A stretch of 64,000 bases of DNA from Leucobacter sp. 7(1) (GTDB lineage: Bacteria; Actinomycetota; Actinomycetes; Actinomycetales; Microbacteriaceae), in NCBI RefSeq assembly GCF_900163635.1, contig NZ_FUID01000005.1:40636-104635 (forward strand). The letters are read 5' to 3'. Position 1 is the stretch's first letter. Every line of letters starts with the position of its first letter. Shown here piece after piece: positions 36,503 to 44,870 of this stretch. The notes beneath the pieces are model-generated. The model worked only from the letters and a program-made list of their open reading frames with translations, was not told the DNA's origin and searched no databases. The position numbers and the translations under genes were made by a program.

Positions 36503-36575
36503 GCCCTGGTAGCTCAGTGGATAGAGCACTTCTCTCCTAAAGAAGGTGTCGGAGGTTCGATTCCTCTCCAGGGCA
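36503..36575 (+). tRNA. tRNA-Arg (anticodon CCT)
   Basis: 73-nt cloverleaf: acceptor GCCCTGG/CCAGGGC, D arm GCTC/GAGC, anticodon stem CTTCT/AGAAG with loop CTCCTAA (anticodon CCT, codon AGG), T arm with TTCGATT and discriminator A. CCA is not encoded. It stands at the left edge of the ATPase-Wadjet block; such genes are frequent island integration sites. Confidence 0.97.
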
Positions 36576-36803
36576 CAGTGTTTTCCGTTGCTCCGCAGCC
36601 AATTCCGCATCCATTTCCGCAGCCCACCCCGTCGAGACCGCAATTTCGCGCGTTCCAGGGGCGTGGAACGCGCCAGATTGAGTTCTCGGCGTTGTTGGAA
36701 GGCGAACAGGAGCCTGTGTCCGGCCTCGAGGTGCAGATTTATGCATGTTAGATAGCTTTAGTATTTCTCAATAAACCTCCCTAAAGCTTGAAATCTTGCT
36801 GAG
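36576..36803. other. 228-bp gap after tRNA-Arg, no gene
   Basis: No ORF with coding character. The last 70 bp are notably A+T rich compared with the surroundings and contain the inverted repeat at 36754-36788. No second copy of the tRNA 3' end was seen here or near 38030 or 43670. Confidence 0.5.
36754..36788 (+). promoter_or_regulatory. inverted repeat upstream of the AAA ATPase gene
   Basis: AGCTTTAG (36754-36761) and CTAAAGCT (36781-36788), perfect 8-bp arms 19 bp apart, ending 15 bp before the ATPase ATG and covering its likely promoter. Possible operator. Confidence 0.45.
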
Positions 36804-38024
36804 ATGGACAGCATCACAAACCCATACACGCCCAACGCTGGCGCCCGTCCCGATGCCATGGTCGGTCGCGAAGAACAGACGGCGGCATTTGGCGTGCTGC
36901 TCCAGCGCCTTGAAGTCGGGCGTACCAGCCAGTCACTCATTGTCAGGGGTTTGCGTGGTGTGGGGAAAACGGTGCCGCTCAACGAGCTCCGCGAGATCGC
37001 CGAACGTCGTTCCTGGAAGGTTGTCGAGCTTGAAGCGAGCAAGTTCGACGAGTCGGTACTTCGCCGAACGCTTGCTACCCAGCTCAAAGCCGCGCTACTA
37101 CAACTCTCACCACGAGCGAAGTGGTCCGAGCGTTTCGAATGGGCCGGGTCAGCGCTCACCTCCTTCTCGCTCGCCGTCGATTTGCAGGGCACGTGGTCGC
37201 TCGGGTGGTCGGTCCCCTCGACAGAAGGAGTGGCGGATCATGGAGACCTCGCTCTTGACCTCACGGACGTGTTTCTCGAGCTTGGCAGGGCAGCCGAGGA
37301 GACTGGTCGTGGAATCGTGATCTCAGTGGATGAGGTTCAGTTTCTGAAGCGCGAGCAGCTTGAAGGCATCATTCAGGCCGTATACAAGACCGTCCAGAGG
37401 AAACTCCCGATCACTTTCGTCGGCGCTGGGATCCCACAGATTGCGGAGCTCGCGGGCGACGCGAAATCCTATGCGGAACGGCTCTTCAAGTTCCCCGAGA
37501 TTTCAGCCCTCACTGATGCGGACGCCGCGGCCGCATTCGCGGATCCAGCAAGGAACGAGGGCGTGGAGTGGGACGACAACGCGCTGAAGTACGCGATAGC
37601 GATGACGCGAGGCTATCCATACTTCATCCAAGAGTTGGGGCACGAGGTGTGGGAAGTTGCGACGGGGGATCGAATCACCCTGGAGTCTGTGCATTACGCG
37701 ATCGAAGCATACGAAGCGAAGCTTGATAGTTCCTTCTTTCGCGTGCGACTTGACCGGGCCACTCCCTTGCAGACCGCATATATGCGCGCGATGGCCCAGC
37801 TCGGAGCGGCTCCGCAGAAGGCTGCAGATGTGGCCGGCCTGATGGGACGGGAATCAGCCCAGGTTGCTCCGACGCGTGCCGAGCTCATCGACATGGGTCT
37901 CCTCTACACTCCGGAGCACGGCTACGCGGCGTTTACGGTTCCGGACTTCGACAAGTTCATGCTTCGAGCTGTGCCGAATCTGGAGGTTCCCCCGATTCGG
38001 AAGCGGCGTTCAACTCAGCGGTAG
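36804..38024 (+). CDS. AAA/STAND-type ATPase next to tRNA-Arg
   Basis: 406 aa. P-loop domain with Walker A GLRGVGKT (49-56), Walker B IVISVDEVQFL (Asp176-Glu177) and a sensor-like TFVGAGIPQI; the C-terminal part (about 300-395) looks like a winged helix (AAQ-KAADVAGLMGRES ... RAELIDMGLLYTPEHGYAAFTVPDF). This resembles the archaeal-type/COG1672-like ATPase group found in accessory regions. Codons look less GC-biased than in neighbours. It is 81 bp upstream of jetA on the same strand; a functional link to the Wadjet genes is inference only. Confidence 0.8.
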   Translation: MDSITNPYTPNAGARPDAMVGREEQTAAFGVLLQRLEVGRTSQSLIVRGLRGVGKTVPLNELREIAERRSWKVVELEASKFDESVLRRTLATQLKAALLQLSPRAKWSERFEWAGSALTSFSLAVDLQGTWSLGWSVPSTEGVADHGDLALDLTDVFLELGRAAEETGRGIVISVDEVQFLKREQLEGIIQAVYKTVQRKLPITFVGAGIPQIAELAGDAKSYAERLFKFPEISALTDADAAAAFADPARNEGVEWDDNALKYAIAMTRGYPYFIQELGHEVWEVATGDRITLESVHYAIEAYEAKLDSSFFRVRLDRATPLQTAYMRAMAQLGAAPQKAADVAGLMGRESAQVAPTRAELIDMGLLYTPEHGYAAFTVPDFDKFMLRAVPNLEVPPIRKRRSTQR

Positions 38025-38093
38025 AGCTCGGTGGTGAATGACAGGACTCCGCGCACCCCAAGCCAGCCGTCAGCTTCGGAGGCCGCGCAGCGG

Positions 38094-38099
38094 TATCCT
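38094..38099 (+). promoter_or_regulatory. -10 box of leaderless jetA
   Basis: TATCCT ends 6 nt before GTG 38106, and no RBS precedes the codon. This suggests jetABC has its own promoter distinct from the ATPase gene. Confidence 0.6.
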
Positions 38100-38105
38100 T
38101 GATCG

Positions 38106-39593
38106 GTGACACACTCCCCGGCTGAGGCCGCCTATTTGCGCGCCGTTGCAGCGTTCAAGAACCCGACGCTGGATCTGCTGCACGGCAGGTACGCCCCCTT
38201 CGTCGTCGCCGTGCTCACCCGCATGTTCACTGCGGAGCGCGCGTCCGTGCCCGTGGCCGACGCCCACGTCGAGGTCGGCGCGTTTGTCGAGGAAATCCGG
38301 GCGGCCGGCTTTGACGCCGAGGAACGCCAGATCCCGGCGGGATCGGGCCGCGAGATCTGCCGGTATTGGGTGCGCGTGGGTTGGCTGGTGCCCCACATTC
38401 AGGAGGGCATCGAGCTGTACCGGCTGTCCGCGCAGGCGGTGGGCGCGCTCGAGGTTGCCGGCCGCGCCGGCGGCGGACGGGCAAAGGTGTCCCGATCCCG
38501 CGTGCGTACTCTGCTGGAGTCCGTGGAACAGCTGACGCAGAGCGCGGAGACCGACCCAGAGAAACGGCTCGCGCGGCTGCGGGCGGAGCGGGACGAGATC
38601 GACGCGGAGATCGCCCTGCTGGAGCGTGAAGAAGCGCCGCTCGAGCCAATCGACGACGATCAGTTACTCGAAGACACCGAGAACATCCTGCACCTGTCCC
38701 GGGAACTGCCCGCCGACTTCGTGCGCGTCGCGGAGTCGATCAATGCGATGCAGCGTGACGTGATCGCGGAGCTGCGTCGCGACGAGCGCCCCGCGGGCGA
38801 GGTGCTGCGCGAATACTTGCAGCGCGGCGAACATGTCATGGACGCGACCCCCGAGGGCCGCGCGTTTTCTGGCGCGTTGAAGCTGATCGGCGACCCGGAA
38901 CACATCGATCACCTCACCGATCAGTTGCAGGGAATCCTCGCACAGCCCTTCACCCGCTTGATGTCGGGGGAGCAGCGAGGCGACCTGCGCGCGATCGCGA
39001 AGCGGGTGGAGCAAGGCGTGCAGGAGGTCCTCAACGCCCAGCGGCGGGCCTCACACGTCATCACCACCCAGGTGCGCACGCACGATCCGATCCGGGATCG
39101 CGAGGTTGACGATCTGCTCCGCGGGGTCATGTCCAGCCTCCAGGCCTGGATGCCTGAGTCTAAAGCGGGCGACCGTGTGGACCCGTTGCGGAGCCTTCCG
39201 ACCGGCGGGATCGGTCACCTGCGGCAATCGCTGAACGATCTGCGGCCCCCGAACCCGCCCGCCCCCTTGCGCGATTCGGGCGCGGAGGCCGAGTTCGTCG
39301 ACGCGGATACGCGCGCCTGGGGCGGACCGAACTACGGAGAACTCGAAGCGTACCTCGCCGGGCTCGACTCGGAGCGCTTCGACCTCGCCACGGCGTTCGA
39401 CGGCATCTCCGCGTCGGATTCGCGCCGCCCAGCCGACCTGCTCGGACTCCTGGAACTTGCCCACCGCAACGGCAGCATCGAGGGGGACACAGTCTCGGTA
39501 GTCGAGGCGCTCCGCCCCGATGGCACCGCCCGCCGCTTCGCTTTCGCGGCCGTGACCGCGCGCACACTGAAGGATGACGCAGATGCTAACTGA
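38106..39593 (+). CDS. jetA: Wadjet subunit JetA (DUF3375)
   Basis: 495-aa DUF3375 protein, the kleisin-like (MukF-type) subunit that bridges the SMC-like JetC in Wadjet anti-plasmid complexes. Recognisable parts are [25 protein letters not shown] near the N terminus, the coiled-coil [40 protein letters not shown] and the C-terminal [18 protein letters not shown]. Length is normal. It overlaps jetB by 11 bp; start is GTG 38106 (leaderless). Confidence 0.93.
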
Positions 39594-40314
39594 GCATGAG
39601 ACACCGGCCGAGCACGAACCGGGTGCGCAGGACGCGGAGGCCCCGTTTGTCGAGGCCGTGGCGATGGAGAACGACCCGGACGGGAGCTTCGCCGGGGATC
39701 GCGGCGTGCTCGATCCTGCGGTCCGCCGCGTGCTCGTGCGCCTGCTGCAGCGCCGCGTGGTGTTCGCGGATCGCAACGCGGAGGAGTGGGCGGTACTGCT
39801 GGAGAACCAGCAGGTGATCGAGTCGCGGCTGCACGACCTGTTCGTGCGGCTCATCGTCGATCCCGAGCGCGGGGTCGCCTACAAGCAGCAGGTGCGCTCC
39901 GACGAGCTTGACGTGCCCGTGCTGCTGCGCGACGAGTCGTACAACCGCGCCGAAACGCTCGTGCTCGTGTATCTGCGTACTGTGTACCAGCGCGAGTCCA
40001 CGGCGGGGGAGCGCGCGGTGTGGGTCGATGTCGAAGACATCGAGCAGACCGTGCTGAGCTACTTCACCGACGGGGACGGGAGCCCGGCCGCGCGGCAGAA
40101 GACAATTAAGAGCGCGCTCGGGCGCCTCCGCCAGGAGGGCATCATTGACGAGGAATCCGAGGGCCGCTACCGGATCACGCCGCTGATCGAGATCGTGCTG
40201 AGCGCGGATCGCCTGCGGGAACTGCTGAGCTGGCTCCGTGAGCAGGTGGCCCCGAACGCGCAAGACTCAAGCCCCGAGCCCACACACACCGATCAGGGAG
40301 AACCCACCGCATGA
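39583..40314 (+). CDS. jetB: Wadjet subunit JetB (DUF4194)
   Basis: 243-aa DUF4194 (MukE-like, tandem winged-helix) subunit. [19 protein letters not shown] motifs ([32 protein letters not shown]), [15 protein letters not shown] and [17 protein letters not shown] fit the family. Start ATG 39583 has AAGGA at good spacing; ATG 39574 does not. Its end overlaps jetC by 4 bp (ATGA), so A-B-C are translated as one operon. Confidence 0.92.
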
Positions 40315-43300
40315 CCATGATCGACACGCTCTTCGGCATGATTCCCGCGGCATCGCGGGGGCAGCAGTGGGTGGCAGACGAACTGCAGCTTGTGAACTGG
40401 GGCGGCTACGACGGCGCTCACCGGGTACGGTTCTCTCCGAATGCGACGCTCCTGTGCGGCGGATCGGGCTCCGGAAAGTCGACCCTGATGGACGGCTACA
40501 TCGCTCTGATGATGCCGCATACGACCCCGTTCAACGGTGCCTCAAACGGCGGAGTGACGGGCCGACCGCGCGGCGACGAGCAGCGCAACATCCTGTCCTA
40601 CGGCCGCGGCAAACTCGATGAGTCTCGCACCGACGAGGGCACCCGGGTGCGTGTGCTCCGCGGCGACGGGGAGGACACCTGGACGGCCCTGGCAATGACG
40701 TGGCTGGATCACGACGGCTCACGCTTTACGGCGGTGCGCGCCTGGTATTTCCCGGCCTCCGCCCGCCTGCTTGACGATGCGGTGAAGGTGCGCGCCACGA
40801 TCGACGGCCCCTTCGATCTGAGCGCCCTGGAGGTCGCAGCAGCCCACAGGCTCTCCGACGCCGCGGTGAAGGCGGTAGGGCTCGACACCTTCGCAACGGA
40901 TCGTGAGTTCTCGGCGAAGATCCACACGGTGCTCGGGATCGGGGCGGCTGGTGCCGGAGCGAAGGCGATGAGCTTGCTTGCCCGGATCCAGGCCGGCCAG
41001 CAGATCACGACCGTCGACGAGTTGTATAAGCGCATGGTGCTTGAAGAGCCCGATTCACTCGCGACGGCGGACGCGGTCGTGGGGCACTTCGACGAGCTCG
41101 AGGGCACTCGGCAACGGATGCTGACCGCGCAGAAGCAGGTGCGGGCGCTTCGGCCGATTCGCGAGATGCGCGAGCGGATTGTGGCTGCCGCGGATCAGCT
41201 CCGCTTGCTTGATGAGATCGGCCGATTCGGGGATCCGGAATCGCTGTCGGCGCTCTGGCGATCACACCGACGTCTTGCACTGCTGCGCGAAGTCGAGGCA
41301 GAGCTGCAGCAGGAGAACGCAGCTGCGGACGCTGAGGTGCGAGCCCAGCAGGCAGTGACCGCCGCCGCCGAGGCTGAACGTGCCGGTCTGGTTGAGGTGC
41401 TGCGGAACTCCGGTGGCGACCGGATCGAGCGGGCTGAGCGCGATCTCGGTCTGGTCGAATCTCGTCTGGAGCAGGTACGTGACGCCCGCGAGCGTTTCGA
41501 CGCGATCGTGGCTCAGCTGTCCGAGGAGATCACGACCGAGAAGGCGTTCCGGGCGCTTGTCACGCGTGCGCGGGCGGAACTCGCGGATCCCGCAGCGAAG
41601 TCGGCCGTGCGGGACGCATACGCCGATGCTCGGGGTGCGACACACATGATTCGGGCCGAGCTTACCCAGCTCGAAGAAGAACACCGCCGCTCGGAATCCC
41701 TGCGGGGCAATATTCCGAGCAAACTGCACGAGTCACGCGAATTGCTCGCACAGGCAGCCGGCCTCTCAGCCGAGGATCTTCCGTTCGTGGGCGAACTCGT
41801 TGAGGTACGCACGGAGTTCGAACCCTGGCGTGACGCGTTCGGGCTTGCCCTTGGCGGGTTCGCAACCACGTTGCTGATCGACGCCGAGCATCTGCCGCGC
41901 TTCCGCGACGCAATCAATGAGGTTCGTGTGCCGTCTCGGCTGCGGTACGAGGGGGTACGGCTCGGCACCGCCGGGAAGACCCGCCTGGATGCGCAGCAGC
42001 TGCCGGGTCGCCTCGACTACCGCGAGGGCCCGTTCACGGGCTGGCTCCAGGAGCGATTGGCGGATCAGTTTGGCTTTGTGTGCGTGGACGATGCGGCCGC
42101 GCTGTCGCAGCACCGCATGGCACTGAGCATCACCGGACAAATGTCGCAGGGGAGCCGTGGCGCACACGGCGGGCACGGGAAGAGTTCAGTACTCGGATTC
42201 TCCAATCAGCGTCGCCTGGCGGAGCTGGCCGAGAACGTTGCCGCCTGTGAGCGACGGTTGCAGGCCGCTGCCGAGGTCGAGCAGGAAGCCGCCCAGGCGC
42301 TCGATGCGCTCGATGCGCGGCACACCGCCTACGGCAAGCTTGTGGACCTCAGCTGGGATCAGTTGAATGTCGCCGCGATCGAGCAAGAGCGCCTGAACTG
42401 GGAGCGGATTGTCGCGGGTCTCGTCGAGGGCAACCCAGAGATCGAAACATTGCAGTCACAGATCTCCGCACTCAAGTCGCAGATCGAGACGCAGCAGAAG
42501 AAAGTGGGCCGGGCCGAGGCAAAGCAGGAGAGCGTTGCACGGCGCTGGGCGGAGATCACCGATGAGGTGGATGCAGCTCAGCAATCGGTCGACGAGGCCG
42601 AGGACGCGGGCCGCGTGCTCGGAGAACACCACGCGGCCTACCTGAGCGAGCGCTTCGAGACTCCGGCCACGGGTCGTGCCCGGAACCGAGGTGATGCGTT
42701 GGCGCGCTTCGACGCGGCGCTCGACACAGCCGCGAAGCTGCTGCAGGAGGATCAGGCAGCCGCTCAGACTACGCTCGAAGAACAGCGCGGTCACCTGCGG
42801 CGTGCTCTTGAGAGCTTCTTAGAGAGCTGGCCCAACCCCAATCTACGCGCCGATCCGGACGCGTCCTTGAAGGACTTTGAGCGGATTCTTGCTGAGCTCG
42901 AAACCAGCGGGCTGCACGAACTCGAGGGGGAGTGGAAGCAGAGCCTGCTGAAGCTCTCGGGCAACGACCTGACAAACCTTGACTCCACGCTGAGCCGTGC
43001 GCTGCGCGAGATCAAGGAGCGCATCGAACCGATCAACCGGATCATGCGGGACCTTCCCTTCTACGATGATGAGCACCGCCTGCAGATCACCCCGCGGGAG
43101 ACGCAGTCGGAGGCGCGGCGGCGTTTCCGCGCGGAACTGCGGGACGTGCGAAGCCTCATCGCGGGTGCCCAGAGTGACGCTGAGCGTGAGCTCGCCTACG
43201 AACGGATGGCCCGGCTGATTGGCCGGATCCGGCGCACCGCACCAGACTTCGCCGAGCTCGTAGACGTGCGCAACCACGTGCGAGTCAGCGCAGAGAAGGT

Positions 43301-43667
43301 GCACGCCCAGACCGGACAGCACGCGGCGCTCTACGACCATATTGGGGAGAAATCCGGGGGCGAGTCGCAGGAGCTCATCGCGTTCATCGTCGGTGCCGCG
43401 CTGCGCTACCAGCTCGGCGATGCGGACGCCGAGCGCCCGCGCTACGCACCCGTGTTCCTCGATGAAGCGCTCATCAAAGCGGACGCCCACTTCACGAAGC
43501 GCGCGATCGGGGCGTGGCGCGGGCTCGGTTTCCAGCTCATAGTCGGTGCGCCAAACGATAAGTACAGCGCGATTGAGCCCCACGTCGATGTCGAATACGA
43601 CATCTTGAAGGACACCCGGGGTCGTTCTTGGGCAAAACCGAAAGTGGGGCTGCCCGCACACCGGTAA
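40311..43667 (+). CDS. jetC: Wadjet subunit JetC (SMC/MukB-like ATPase)
   Basis: 1118-aa SMC-like ATPase, the motor that extrudes plasmid DNA in Wadjet. Walker [10 protein letters not shown] (about 51-59), long coiled-coil arms (about 330-500 and 640-880), a central hinge-like globular part (about 500-640), signature KSGGESQEL and Walker [13 protein letters not shown] near the C terminus. All ATPase motifs are intact. The gene ends 3 bp from the convergent FtsW-family gene, leaving no room for jetD, which normally follows. Confidence 0.93.
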
Positions 43668-43670
43668 TGC

Positions 43671-44870
43671 TCACCCCACTCCCGCGTCCCGCTCGGCTTG
43701 CTCACGCACGCACGTCAGTACCACGCCGATCGCCATGAGCGTGGAGATGAGCGAGGTGCCGCCCGCGGACACGAACGGCAGCGGCACCCCCAGCACGGGG
43801 ATGAAACCGAGCACCACGGCCACATTCACGGCCATCTGAGCGCTGATCCACGCCGTCGCACCGCCGAGCACGGCGGTGGCGAACGGGTCGCTGCAGCGGC
43901 CGATGAGGCCGACGAGGGCGAGCGCGATGGCCGTGAATGCGGCGAGAACGGCCGCCGCCCCGATCAACCCGAGTTCTTCGCCAGTGATCGCAAAGATGAA
44001 GTCCGTGTCCGCCTCTGGCAGCCAAGCCCACTTCGCGGTTGAATTTCCGAGTCCCGCGCCGAAGATCCCGCCGTGCGCGAGTGCCCAGAAGCCGTTCAGT
44101 GACTGCCAACACATACCCTGCGCGTGTTCCGCGTCATTCAGGCAGTCGATTTCCATGAACTGCACAATACGAATGACGCGATTGGGTTTGATAAGTGTCA
44201 TTACGGCGATGCCCGCGGCCGCGATTGCCGCGATCGCGGCGAGAAAGCGGAGGCGGACTCCGGAGAAGAACAGGCAGCCGAACACGAGTGCCGCGATCAC
44301 CATGAGGGTGCCGAGATCCCCACCGATCACGTTGATGCCCATCGACAATGCAACGACGGGAAGGATCGGGATTGCGACGTGCCACCATTCGCGCAGGAGC
44401 GGACGCTTCGTCGCGAGCACCGTCGCGACCCACACCAGTAGCACGAACTTCATGAACTCCGCGGGCTGCGCGGAGAGAGGACCGAGGCGCAGCCAGTTTC
44501 GATTGCCTCCCGCCTCGTATCCCAGCGGGGTGTAGACCAAGAGTTGCAGGACGAGTCCCGCACCGAGCAGTGGCCACGCGAGACGCCGCAGCCTGTCCGT
44601 CGGGGTTCGACTGAGTGCCACGAGCAGCCCAAGCCCTACCAGCGCGTACCCACCCTGCCGGATCAATCCAGAGAACGGGTTGCCGCCTACAGCGATCGCC
44701 GAAACCTGGCTTGCGGACTGCACCATGAGGATACCGAGCCCGGTGAGGAGGCAGACCGCGGTCACCAGGATCGTTGTCAGGGTGCGCAGCGGCCCGGCCG
44801 CGGTGGGAACGCCACCGAAGCCGGTCGCACGCGCCGCAGGAAGACGCAGGCGGCTCGACCGAGAGGTCAC
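43671..44870 (-). CDS. FtsW/RodA/SpoVE-family glycosyltransferase
   Basis: 399-aa SEDS protein with about ten transmembrane helices, polymerising lipid II glycan strands. GGNRNWLRLGPLSAQPAEFMKF and GGDLGTLMV (with the catalytic-type Asp) are conserved; the large extracellular loop contains GMCWQSLNGFWALAHGGIFGAGLGNSTAKWAWLPEADTDFIFAITGEELG; the C-terminal LPFVSAGGTSL is present. FtsW versus another SEDS member cannot be settled here. It follows the LCP gene by 7 bp. Confidence 0.92.
   Translation of the reverse strand: MTSRSSRLRLPAARATGFGGVPTAAGPLRTLTTILVTAVCLLTGLGILMVQSASQVSAIAVGGNPFSGLIRQGGYALVGLGLLVALSRTPTDRLRRLAWPLLGAGLVLQLLVYTPLGYEAGGNRNWLRLGPLSAQPAEFMKFVLLVWVATVLATKRPLLREWWHVAIPILPVVALSMGINVIGGDLGTLMVIAALVFGCLFFSGVRLRFLAAIAAIAAAGIAVMTLIKPNRVIRIVQFMEIDCLNDAEHAQGMCWQSLNGFWALAHGGIFGAGLGNSTAKWAWLPEADTDFIFAITGEELGLIGAAAVLAAFTAIALALVGLIGRCSDPFATAVLGGATAWISAQMAVNVAVVLGFIPVLGVPLPFVSAGGTSLISTLMAIGVVLTCVREQAERDAGVG

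Follow-up and report, generated by a model that had tools for sequence, protein, structure and literature searches.

A type I Wadjet-lineage JetABC motor without detectable JetD in Leucobacter sp. 7(1) and its relatives

The locus considered here lies in a stretch of 64,000 nucleotides of the Leucobacter sp. 7(1) genome (assembly GCF_900163635.1, contig NZ_FUID01000005.1, positions 40,636 to 104,635), which is called the window below and to which all coordinates refer unless another locus is named. Three consecutive genes on its forward strand encode the kleisin JetA (DUF3375, 495 aa, 38106..39593), the KITE protein JetB (DUF4194, 246 aa, 39574..40314, with an alternative start at 39583) and the SMC-like ATPase JetC (1118 aa, 40311..43667) of a Wadjet system. 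These assignments were obtained with Pfam (DUF3375 at E 1e-106 for JetA, DUF4194 at E 4e-44 for JetB, SbcC_Walker_B at E 1.8e-22 and AAA_29 at E 2.3e-20 for JetC), with PADLOC, in which the best models were JetA1 (680 bits), JetB1 (351 bits) and JetC1 (1655 bits), and by matches of all three proteins to solved Wadjet chains in PDB, that of JetC being at E 5e-44. The initial annotation had described the three genes as intact, which agrees with the strong family matches and with the presence of Walker A, signature and Walker B motifs in JetC. It had also given a JetA/JetB overlap of 11 bp; this figure holds for the second ATG of jetB (39583), while the first one (39574) gives 20 bp. JetB and JetC overlap by 4 bp. 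In relatives bearing JetD, the Wadjet nuclease, its gene stands directly 3' of jetC (G153, G193, G223, L064 and L065), so that in the window it would be expected to begin at 43668..43670. Here, as the earlier coordinates had it, these 3 bp are all that separates the stop of JetC from the stop of a convergent FtsW/RodA family gene (Pfam; 43671..44870, reverse strand). The locus thus encodes all three motor subunits of a type I Wadjet relative, and no JetD was detected in it.

The absence extends to the whole genome. Profile searches with JetD_C (PF09983) and DUF3322 (PF11795) gave no matches in the 106 contigs of the assembly, and a JetD taken from the same JetC clade and used as a query found none there either, so that of the explanations offered at the outset the one placing jetD elsewhere in the genome finds no support in the search it called for. 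One might suppose that JetD is present and was lost from the assembly, or that it is too divergent to be detected. The fragmentation of the assembly and the fact that the same-clade query recovers only three of the four genus genomes in which PF09983 finds JetD are in favor of this supposition. We consider it very improbable, given the completeness of the assembly (99.5%, with 4.6% contamination), the three concordant negative searches, the ability of PF09983 to detect JetD where it is present (4 of 54 genus, 32 of 299 family and 22 of 396 phylum genomes, many of the phylum matches being weak), and the same lack of JetD in 18 further genomes of the genus sample that carry a close JetC.

The distribution of JetD beside JetC was followed in samples of genomes of the genus, family and phylum and in named genomes; these samples overlap, containing 11 pairs of identical JetC rows. 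In the genus sample a JetC match was found in 24 of 54 genomes, two of which (G016 and G039) have the gene split or cut by contig ends. Twenty genomes carry the close type and five a distant one (about 26% identity), G015 having both. JetD was seen beside none of the 20 close JetCs and was detected nowhere in 19 of these 20 genomes. All four JetD-carrying genomes of the genus have it next to the distant JetC, G015 being the only one of them with a close JetC as well; the remaining distant JetC, that of G035, is on a short contig. Among the 299 genomes of the family sample, G000, G015 and G027 included, JetD adjoins 3 of 16 close JetCs (at least 60% identity, own genome included), 3 of 27 intermediate ones (35-39%) and 23 of 30 distant ones (at most 32%). 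To obtain these 73 JetC loci, split matches were joined and the short fragments G136 C1:2043822, G325 C116, G115 C1:2517947, G279 C53 and G180 C1:1975698 discarded; since two candidates per genome were scored, the tally may miss extra copies. The JetD search evidently has power, because JetD was found beside 23 of the 30 distant JetCs. In the phylum sample JetD, as read from coordinates, adjoins 8 of 18 JetC places and not the other 10.

Of 80 related JetC loci taken from named genomes, two have an intact JetD after JetC, L064 (Promicromonospora) and L065 (Nocardia inohanensis), and one, L017 (Microbacterium helvum), has a broken one. JetD is absent in 73 loci, to which L075, a decayed copy, and the incomplete L076 and L077 belong, and four loci (L016, L021, L046 and L058) offer less than 1 kb beyond JetC and could not be judged. 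Profile searches of the stretches around 15 loci (L208, L240-L245 and L264-L271, of which L271 is the same locus as L062) found JetA, JetB and JetC and no JetD, while the same search gave JetD at E <1e-115 in the positive controls L272-L275. L208 and L240-L245 are the distant JetD-less loci of the family tally; belonging to the genus g35 and to G228, they form a group set apart by a long branch in the JetC tree. L264-L269 are a distant JetABC group of one family (f6) in which JetD is likewise absent, and they may correspond to the domains DUF4194, DUF3375 and AAA_29 in the domain table of PMC10551460, apparently enriched in rapid-growing mycobacteria. Remnants of JetD after JetC were searched for with tblastn in all frames at E 0.1, and only the intact copies and the broken one of L017 appeared; a JetD-like stretch of E 0.01 in L035 lies upstream of JetA and was taken as a chance match. 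The comparison of orthologous loci proposed in the initial annotation was thereby made, and JetD proved to be mostly missing from the genus, from the close and intermediate JetCs of the family and from the named genomes. Its absence is the rule in the JetC lineage of the window and no local accident.

The rows with JetD are dispersed over a FastTree phylogeny of 131 JetC rows, in which the window falls into a JetD-free clade of 18 rows (support 98) from Leucobacter, Gulosibacter and Corynebacterium. A quick IQ-TREE run with 58 chosen rows placed it in a set of 12 rows (support 99), none with JetD, comprising Leucobacter and members of the genus sample, Gulosibacter, Corynebacterium and one Microbacterium. 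In both trees the Corynebacterium rows are nested among those of Leucobacter. When the JetC tree is reduced to the 16 rows of the JetD tree, the two have 13 of 13 splits in common, five nodes of the JetD tree having a bootstrap below 70. Parsimony on the 58 rows needs 10 changes when gain and loss have equal cost, or 22 losses if JetD is ancestral and never regained; these counts, with the broken L017 scored as JetD-bearing, depend on the choice of rows, on midpoint rooting and on long branches, of which both runs warned. Judging from the congruence of the two trees and from parsimony, JetD looks like an ancestral partner of JetC that was lost repeatedly. Such loss can be seen in progress: in L017:13318-14315 the JetD frame is broken and, by eye, the stretch holding the Toprim core is missing, JetABC being intact, and in L074, whose surroundings match on both sides, the sequence that follows JetD in L017 starts right after JetC. 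The initial annotation had reasoned that relatives with jetD directly after jetC would point to a recent deletion. Such relatives do exist, but a recent deletion in this strain was rejected in view of the JetD-less clades of 18 and 12 rows; because the supported clades holding the window are all without JetD, its loss must be old.

This bears on the possibility that JetABC is the non-functional remnant of a recently disarmed Wadjet. The broken JetD of L017 and its disappearance from the syntenic place in L074 are what such a history would produce, and one copy has indeed decayed, namely L075:7707-13338 of Tessaracoccus coleopterorum, in which jetA and jetC are split into several reading frames. 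The remaining JetABC sequences do not look like debris. A complete Walker A motif is present in 130 of 131 JetC rows, the exception, L065, beginning at a contig edge, and Walker B and signature are preserved in each of the 129 rows spanning both (the partial or broken L058, L075, L076 and L077 were left out of this motif alignment). The ratio of nonsynonymous to synonymous substitutions (dN/dS, Nei-Gojobori) in 15 chosen JetD-less pairs was 0.034-0.125 for JetA, 0.012-0.127 for JetB and 0.032-0.136 for JetC. JetD-less JetABC is kept intact under purifying selection, and its JetD-free clades are well supported and span several genera, which makes the remnant reading quite improbable. Besides, the JetC matches of L152, L153 and L162 come in two pieces overlapping at query residues 794-802, 794-801 and 162-173, respectively, as if an extra segment were inserted, and the JetC match of G214 (L161) contains one in-frame TAG.

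The three genes also behave as if they moved together. The start of JetA was mapped in 121 of 132 oriented loci, 120 of which have enough upstream sequence. In 16 of these 120 the 250 bp before JetA contain the ends of tRNA genes on its own strand, 18 in all, which represent six kinds of site: Ala(ggc), Ser(gct), Pro(ggg), Gln(ctg), Thr(ggt)-Met(cat) and Val(cac). No opposite-strand tRNA gene lies within the same distance upstream (nine are found at 250-750 bp), none of either orientation lies within 250 bp downstream, and the other 104 loci have no tRNA gene within 250 bp upstream. Some of the tRNA-adjacent loci share their site by descent, so the independent events are fewer than 16. All 16 are JetD-less, and none of the six scorable JetD-bearing loci is tRNA-adjacent. 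In two genomes of one genus, G223 and G169, 6 kb are common at 92% identity in differing surroundings; the shared block reaches from about 40 bp ahead of the JetA frame to 6 and 45 bp short of the JetC stops, a single match of 132 bp exists outside it, and JetD is found in G223 only. Carriage of JetABC by plasmids or phages was considered and rejected, searches having given a best plasmid match of 40% identity and one phage record at 27%. In the window the -10-like box TATCCT (38094..38099, forward strand) ends 6 nt 5' of the JetA start, and a TAnnnT box ending 6-9 nt before the start codon recurs in 77 of 96 loci with the start codon at the aligned place, as compared with 0-5 of 96 in five control windows. 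This conserved box is predicted to be the leaderless promoter of JetA, as had been suspected. JetABC behaves as a portable three-gene unit occupying different chromosomal sites in close relatives, and from its patchy and mobile distribution we infer an accessory, defense-type role.

The same observations speak against JetABC being an accessory condensin of the MksBEF type that organizes or segregates the chromosome. A chromosome role has been described for the P. aeruginosa complex named MksBEF (excerpts of PMC7485682 and PMC7083940), and some genera recur among the intermediate JetCs of our family sample (g50, g63 and g78, with five genomes each). However, JetABC is patchy in the genus of the window (20 of 54 genomes) and stands at different sites in close relatives, the Corynebacterium JetCs are nested among those of Leucobacter, and the genome under study has a kleisin ScpA of its own. 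In addition, C. glutamicum MksB acts on plasmids and not on chromosome folding, having no significant effect on chromosome architecture according to an excerpt of PMC7083940. We therefore regard a condensin role as unlikely.

A tRNA gene also borders the locus in the window, at a greater distance from JetA. A tRNA-Arg(cct) gene (36503..36576, forward strand) and the convergent ftsW-family gene delimit a site of variable content. In the nearest locus, L001 of Leucobacter chromiireducens subsp. solipictus (JetC 93% identical), synteny with the window continues through the end of tRNA-Arg and resumes 54 bp before JetA. About 305 bp separate tRNA-Arg from ftsW in G030 (L213), and in G007 (L212) about 1.2 kb of different content stand between them, JetABC being located on another contig in both. 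No exact copy of the last 16-30 bases of the tRNA-Arg 3' end was found elsewhere in the 64-kb window, and no attachment-like repeat of it was present among the 20 repeat families listed out of 49.

Within this site the window carries an AAA_16/AAA_22 ATPase gene (Pfam; 406 aa, 36804..38024, forward strand), 81 bp upstream of JetA and on the same strand, which the initial annotation had named as the only candidate partner of JetABC. In L001 its position is taken by genes for a DUF892 ferritin-like and a low-affinity iron-permease-like protein (L001:6403-7551), and it is because other genes fill its place in such a close relative that we take the ATPase as cargo of the tRNA site, most likely outside the Wadjet system. 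The proposed co-occurrence with JetABC was not borne out: among the 80 JetC loci, some with little upstream sequence, the ATPase has a sole match, a homologue of 27% identity directly after JetC in L080. The latter (L080:13490-14692, Microbacterium halophytorum), where a tRNA cluster stands about 2.6 kb beyond JetC, is the one further case observed in which the two families occur side by side. The other 53 genus-sample genomes contain no full-length relative that exceeds 30% identity, short partial matches there reaching 51%, and the family is very large, with at least 7995 scored relatives in the protein database, the top 120 of which have at least 64% identity; among these 120, relatives of 74-77% identity come from genomes named Leucobacter. 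The ATPase was accordingly rejected as an effector replacing JetD. Its orientation and proximity to JetA and the L080 homologue could be cited for such a substitution; its replacement in the sister locus, the 79 of 80 loci without a match, the size of its family and the predicted promoter of JetA all argue against it and leave the idea extremely improbable.

A replacement effector was sought among the other neighbors as well. In the 30 largest neighbor clusters of 132 loci, built from longest-open-reading-frame calls that are noisy in GC-rich DNA, only locally syntenic or mixed groups and JetD appeared beside JetABC. JetABC might instead pass captured circular DNA to a host nuclease or topoisomerase acting in trans and docking at the place of JetD. 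Precedents for such contacts are the C. glutamicum kleisin MksF, which binds MksG and so ties the nuclease to the motor, and MukB, which binds topoisomerase IV (excerpt of PMC10123090). An N-terminal F.GD element of JetB, kept in 117 JetD-less proteins, could serve as a docking place. That the element is the counterpart of the JetD-contacting IFDR motif is a guess taken from one sentence of a review, and three JetD-bearing JetBs (L102-L104) do not have it. In the noisy neighbor clusters, moreover, JetD alone sits directly after JetC in different lineages. Recruitment of a nuclease in trans thus seems rather unlikely to us.

We tentatively prefer, at somewhat less than even chances, the reading that JetD-free JetABC restricts incoming circular DNA by loading and extrusion, that is, by compacting or silencing it without cutting. 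In the characterized system JetABC senses circular DNA via loop extrusion and JetD cuts it (excerpt of PMC10586767). The motor of the window would load on and extrude incoming circular DNA in the same manner, and the outcome would be interference with its replication or expression and no cleavage. A JetD-free motor most likely still acts on such DNA because it is accessory, mobile and under selection, and restriction without cutting is plausible because human Smc5/6 restricts circular extrachromosomal DNA with silencing (PMC10586767, likewise from an excerpt). Several points weigh against this reading. All four jet genes were reported as required in B. subtilis, JetD being held to be the effector, and JetABC without JetD gave no protection there (PMC10586767, in the excerpted part); in the open-licence literature, activity of a JetD-free JetABC of the present lineage was not found. 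G015, G186, G213 and G288 carry a separate JetC with adjoining JetD, and it is possible that JetD serves JetABC in trans in these genomes. In the mixed pair L152/L153 (G223 with JetD, G169 without) dN/dS was 0.065 for JetA, 0.025 for JetB and, for the best-scoring JetC stretch only, 0.253, which is higher than elsewhere. Among JetD-bearing rows with the F.GD element 7 of 8 have L before the F, as do 81 of the 117 JetD-less rows, to which L017 with its broken JetD was assigned, a pattern that neither supports nor excludes loss of JetD docking. Finally, JetABC may itself be disappearing in the wake of the repeated losses of JetD. The strength of purifying selection argues against this, but a slow decay, of which the broken L075 would be a sign, may still be under way.

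A broader and bolder proposition, to which we give somewhat less credence, is that Actinobacteria repeatedly converted Wadjet into an immune motor free of any nuclease, the bacterial equivalent of restriction by Smc5/6, in which JetABC would spread between tRNA sites and capture, compact and silence circular foreign DNA. Apparent repeated loss of JetD from a JetABC kept under strong selection points to an advantage conferred by the motor alone, and it offers a natural system for the question of how a loop-extruding SMC complex acts on circular DNA when nothing cuts. For annotation, JetD-less JetABC should be regarded neither as a complete Wadjet nor as debris.

Compared with type I Wadjet (JetABCD; MksBEFG of C. 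glutamicum), the locus is alike in the JetA (DUF3375), JetB (DUF4194) and JetC (SMC-like ATPase) families, in gene order, overlaps and ATPase motifs, and differs in having no JetD at the locus and none found in the genome, its lineage being mostly without JetD as well. With MksBEF of P. aeruginosa PAO1, to which a part in chromosome segregation is ascribed, it shares the nature of an SMC-like complex, and as expected of an accessory condensin of the MksBEF type it has SMC, kleisin and KITE genes together without a nuclease gene. The stable place of a housekeeping complex, a criterion of our own, was not found for window-type JetABC, which is patchy and occupies varying sites, and its JetB scores 151 bits with DUF4194 as against 29 bits with MksE, being much nearer to the former. 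P. aeruginosa PA14, in turn, has an mksFEBG operon, as an excerpt of PMC10123090 states. MksBEF of P. aeruginosa has been studied, and JetABC without JetD is already known as a table entry: for Paenarthrobacter lasiusi S21, JetA, JetB and JetC are listed without JetD next to a separate JetABCD (PMC11719660, Table 6). No paper describing a JetD-less Wadjet lineage was found in the open-licence literature beyond that entry and the domain list of PMC10551460. Human Smc5/6, which is eukaryotic and has many more subunits, would be related to the JetD-free motor by analogy of action and not by membership.

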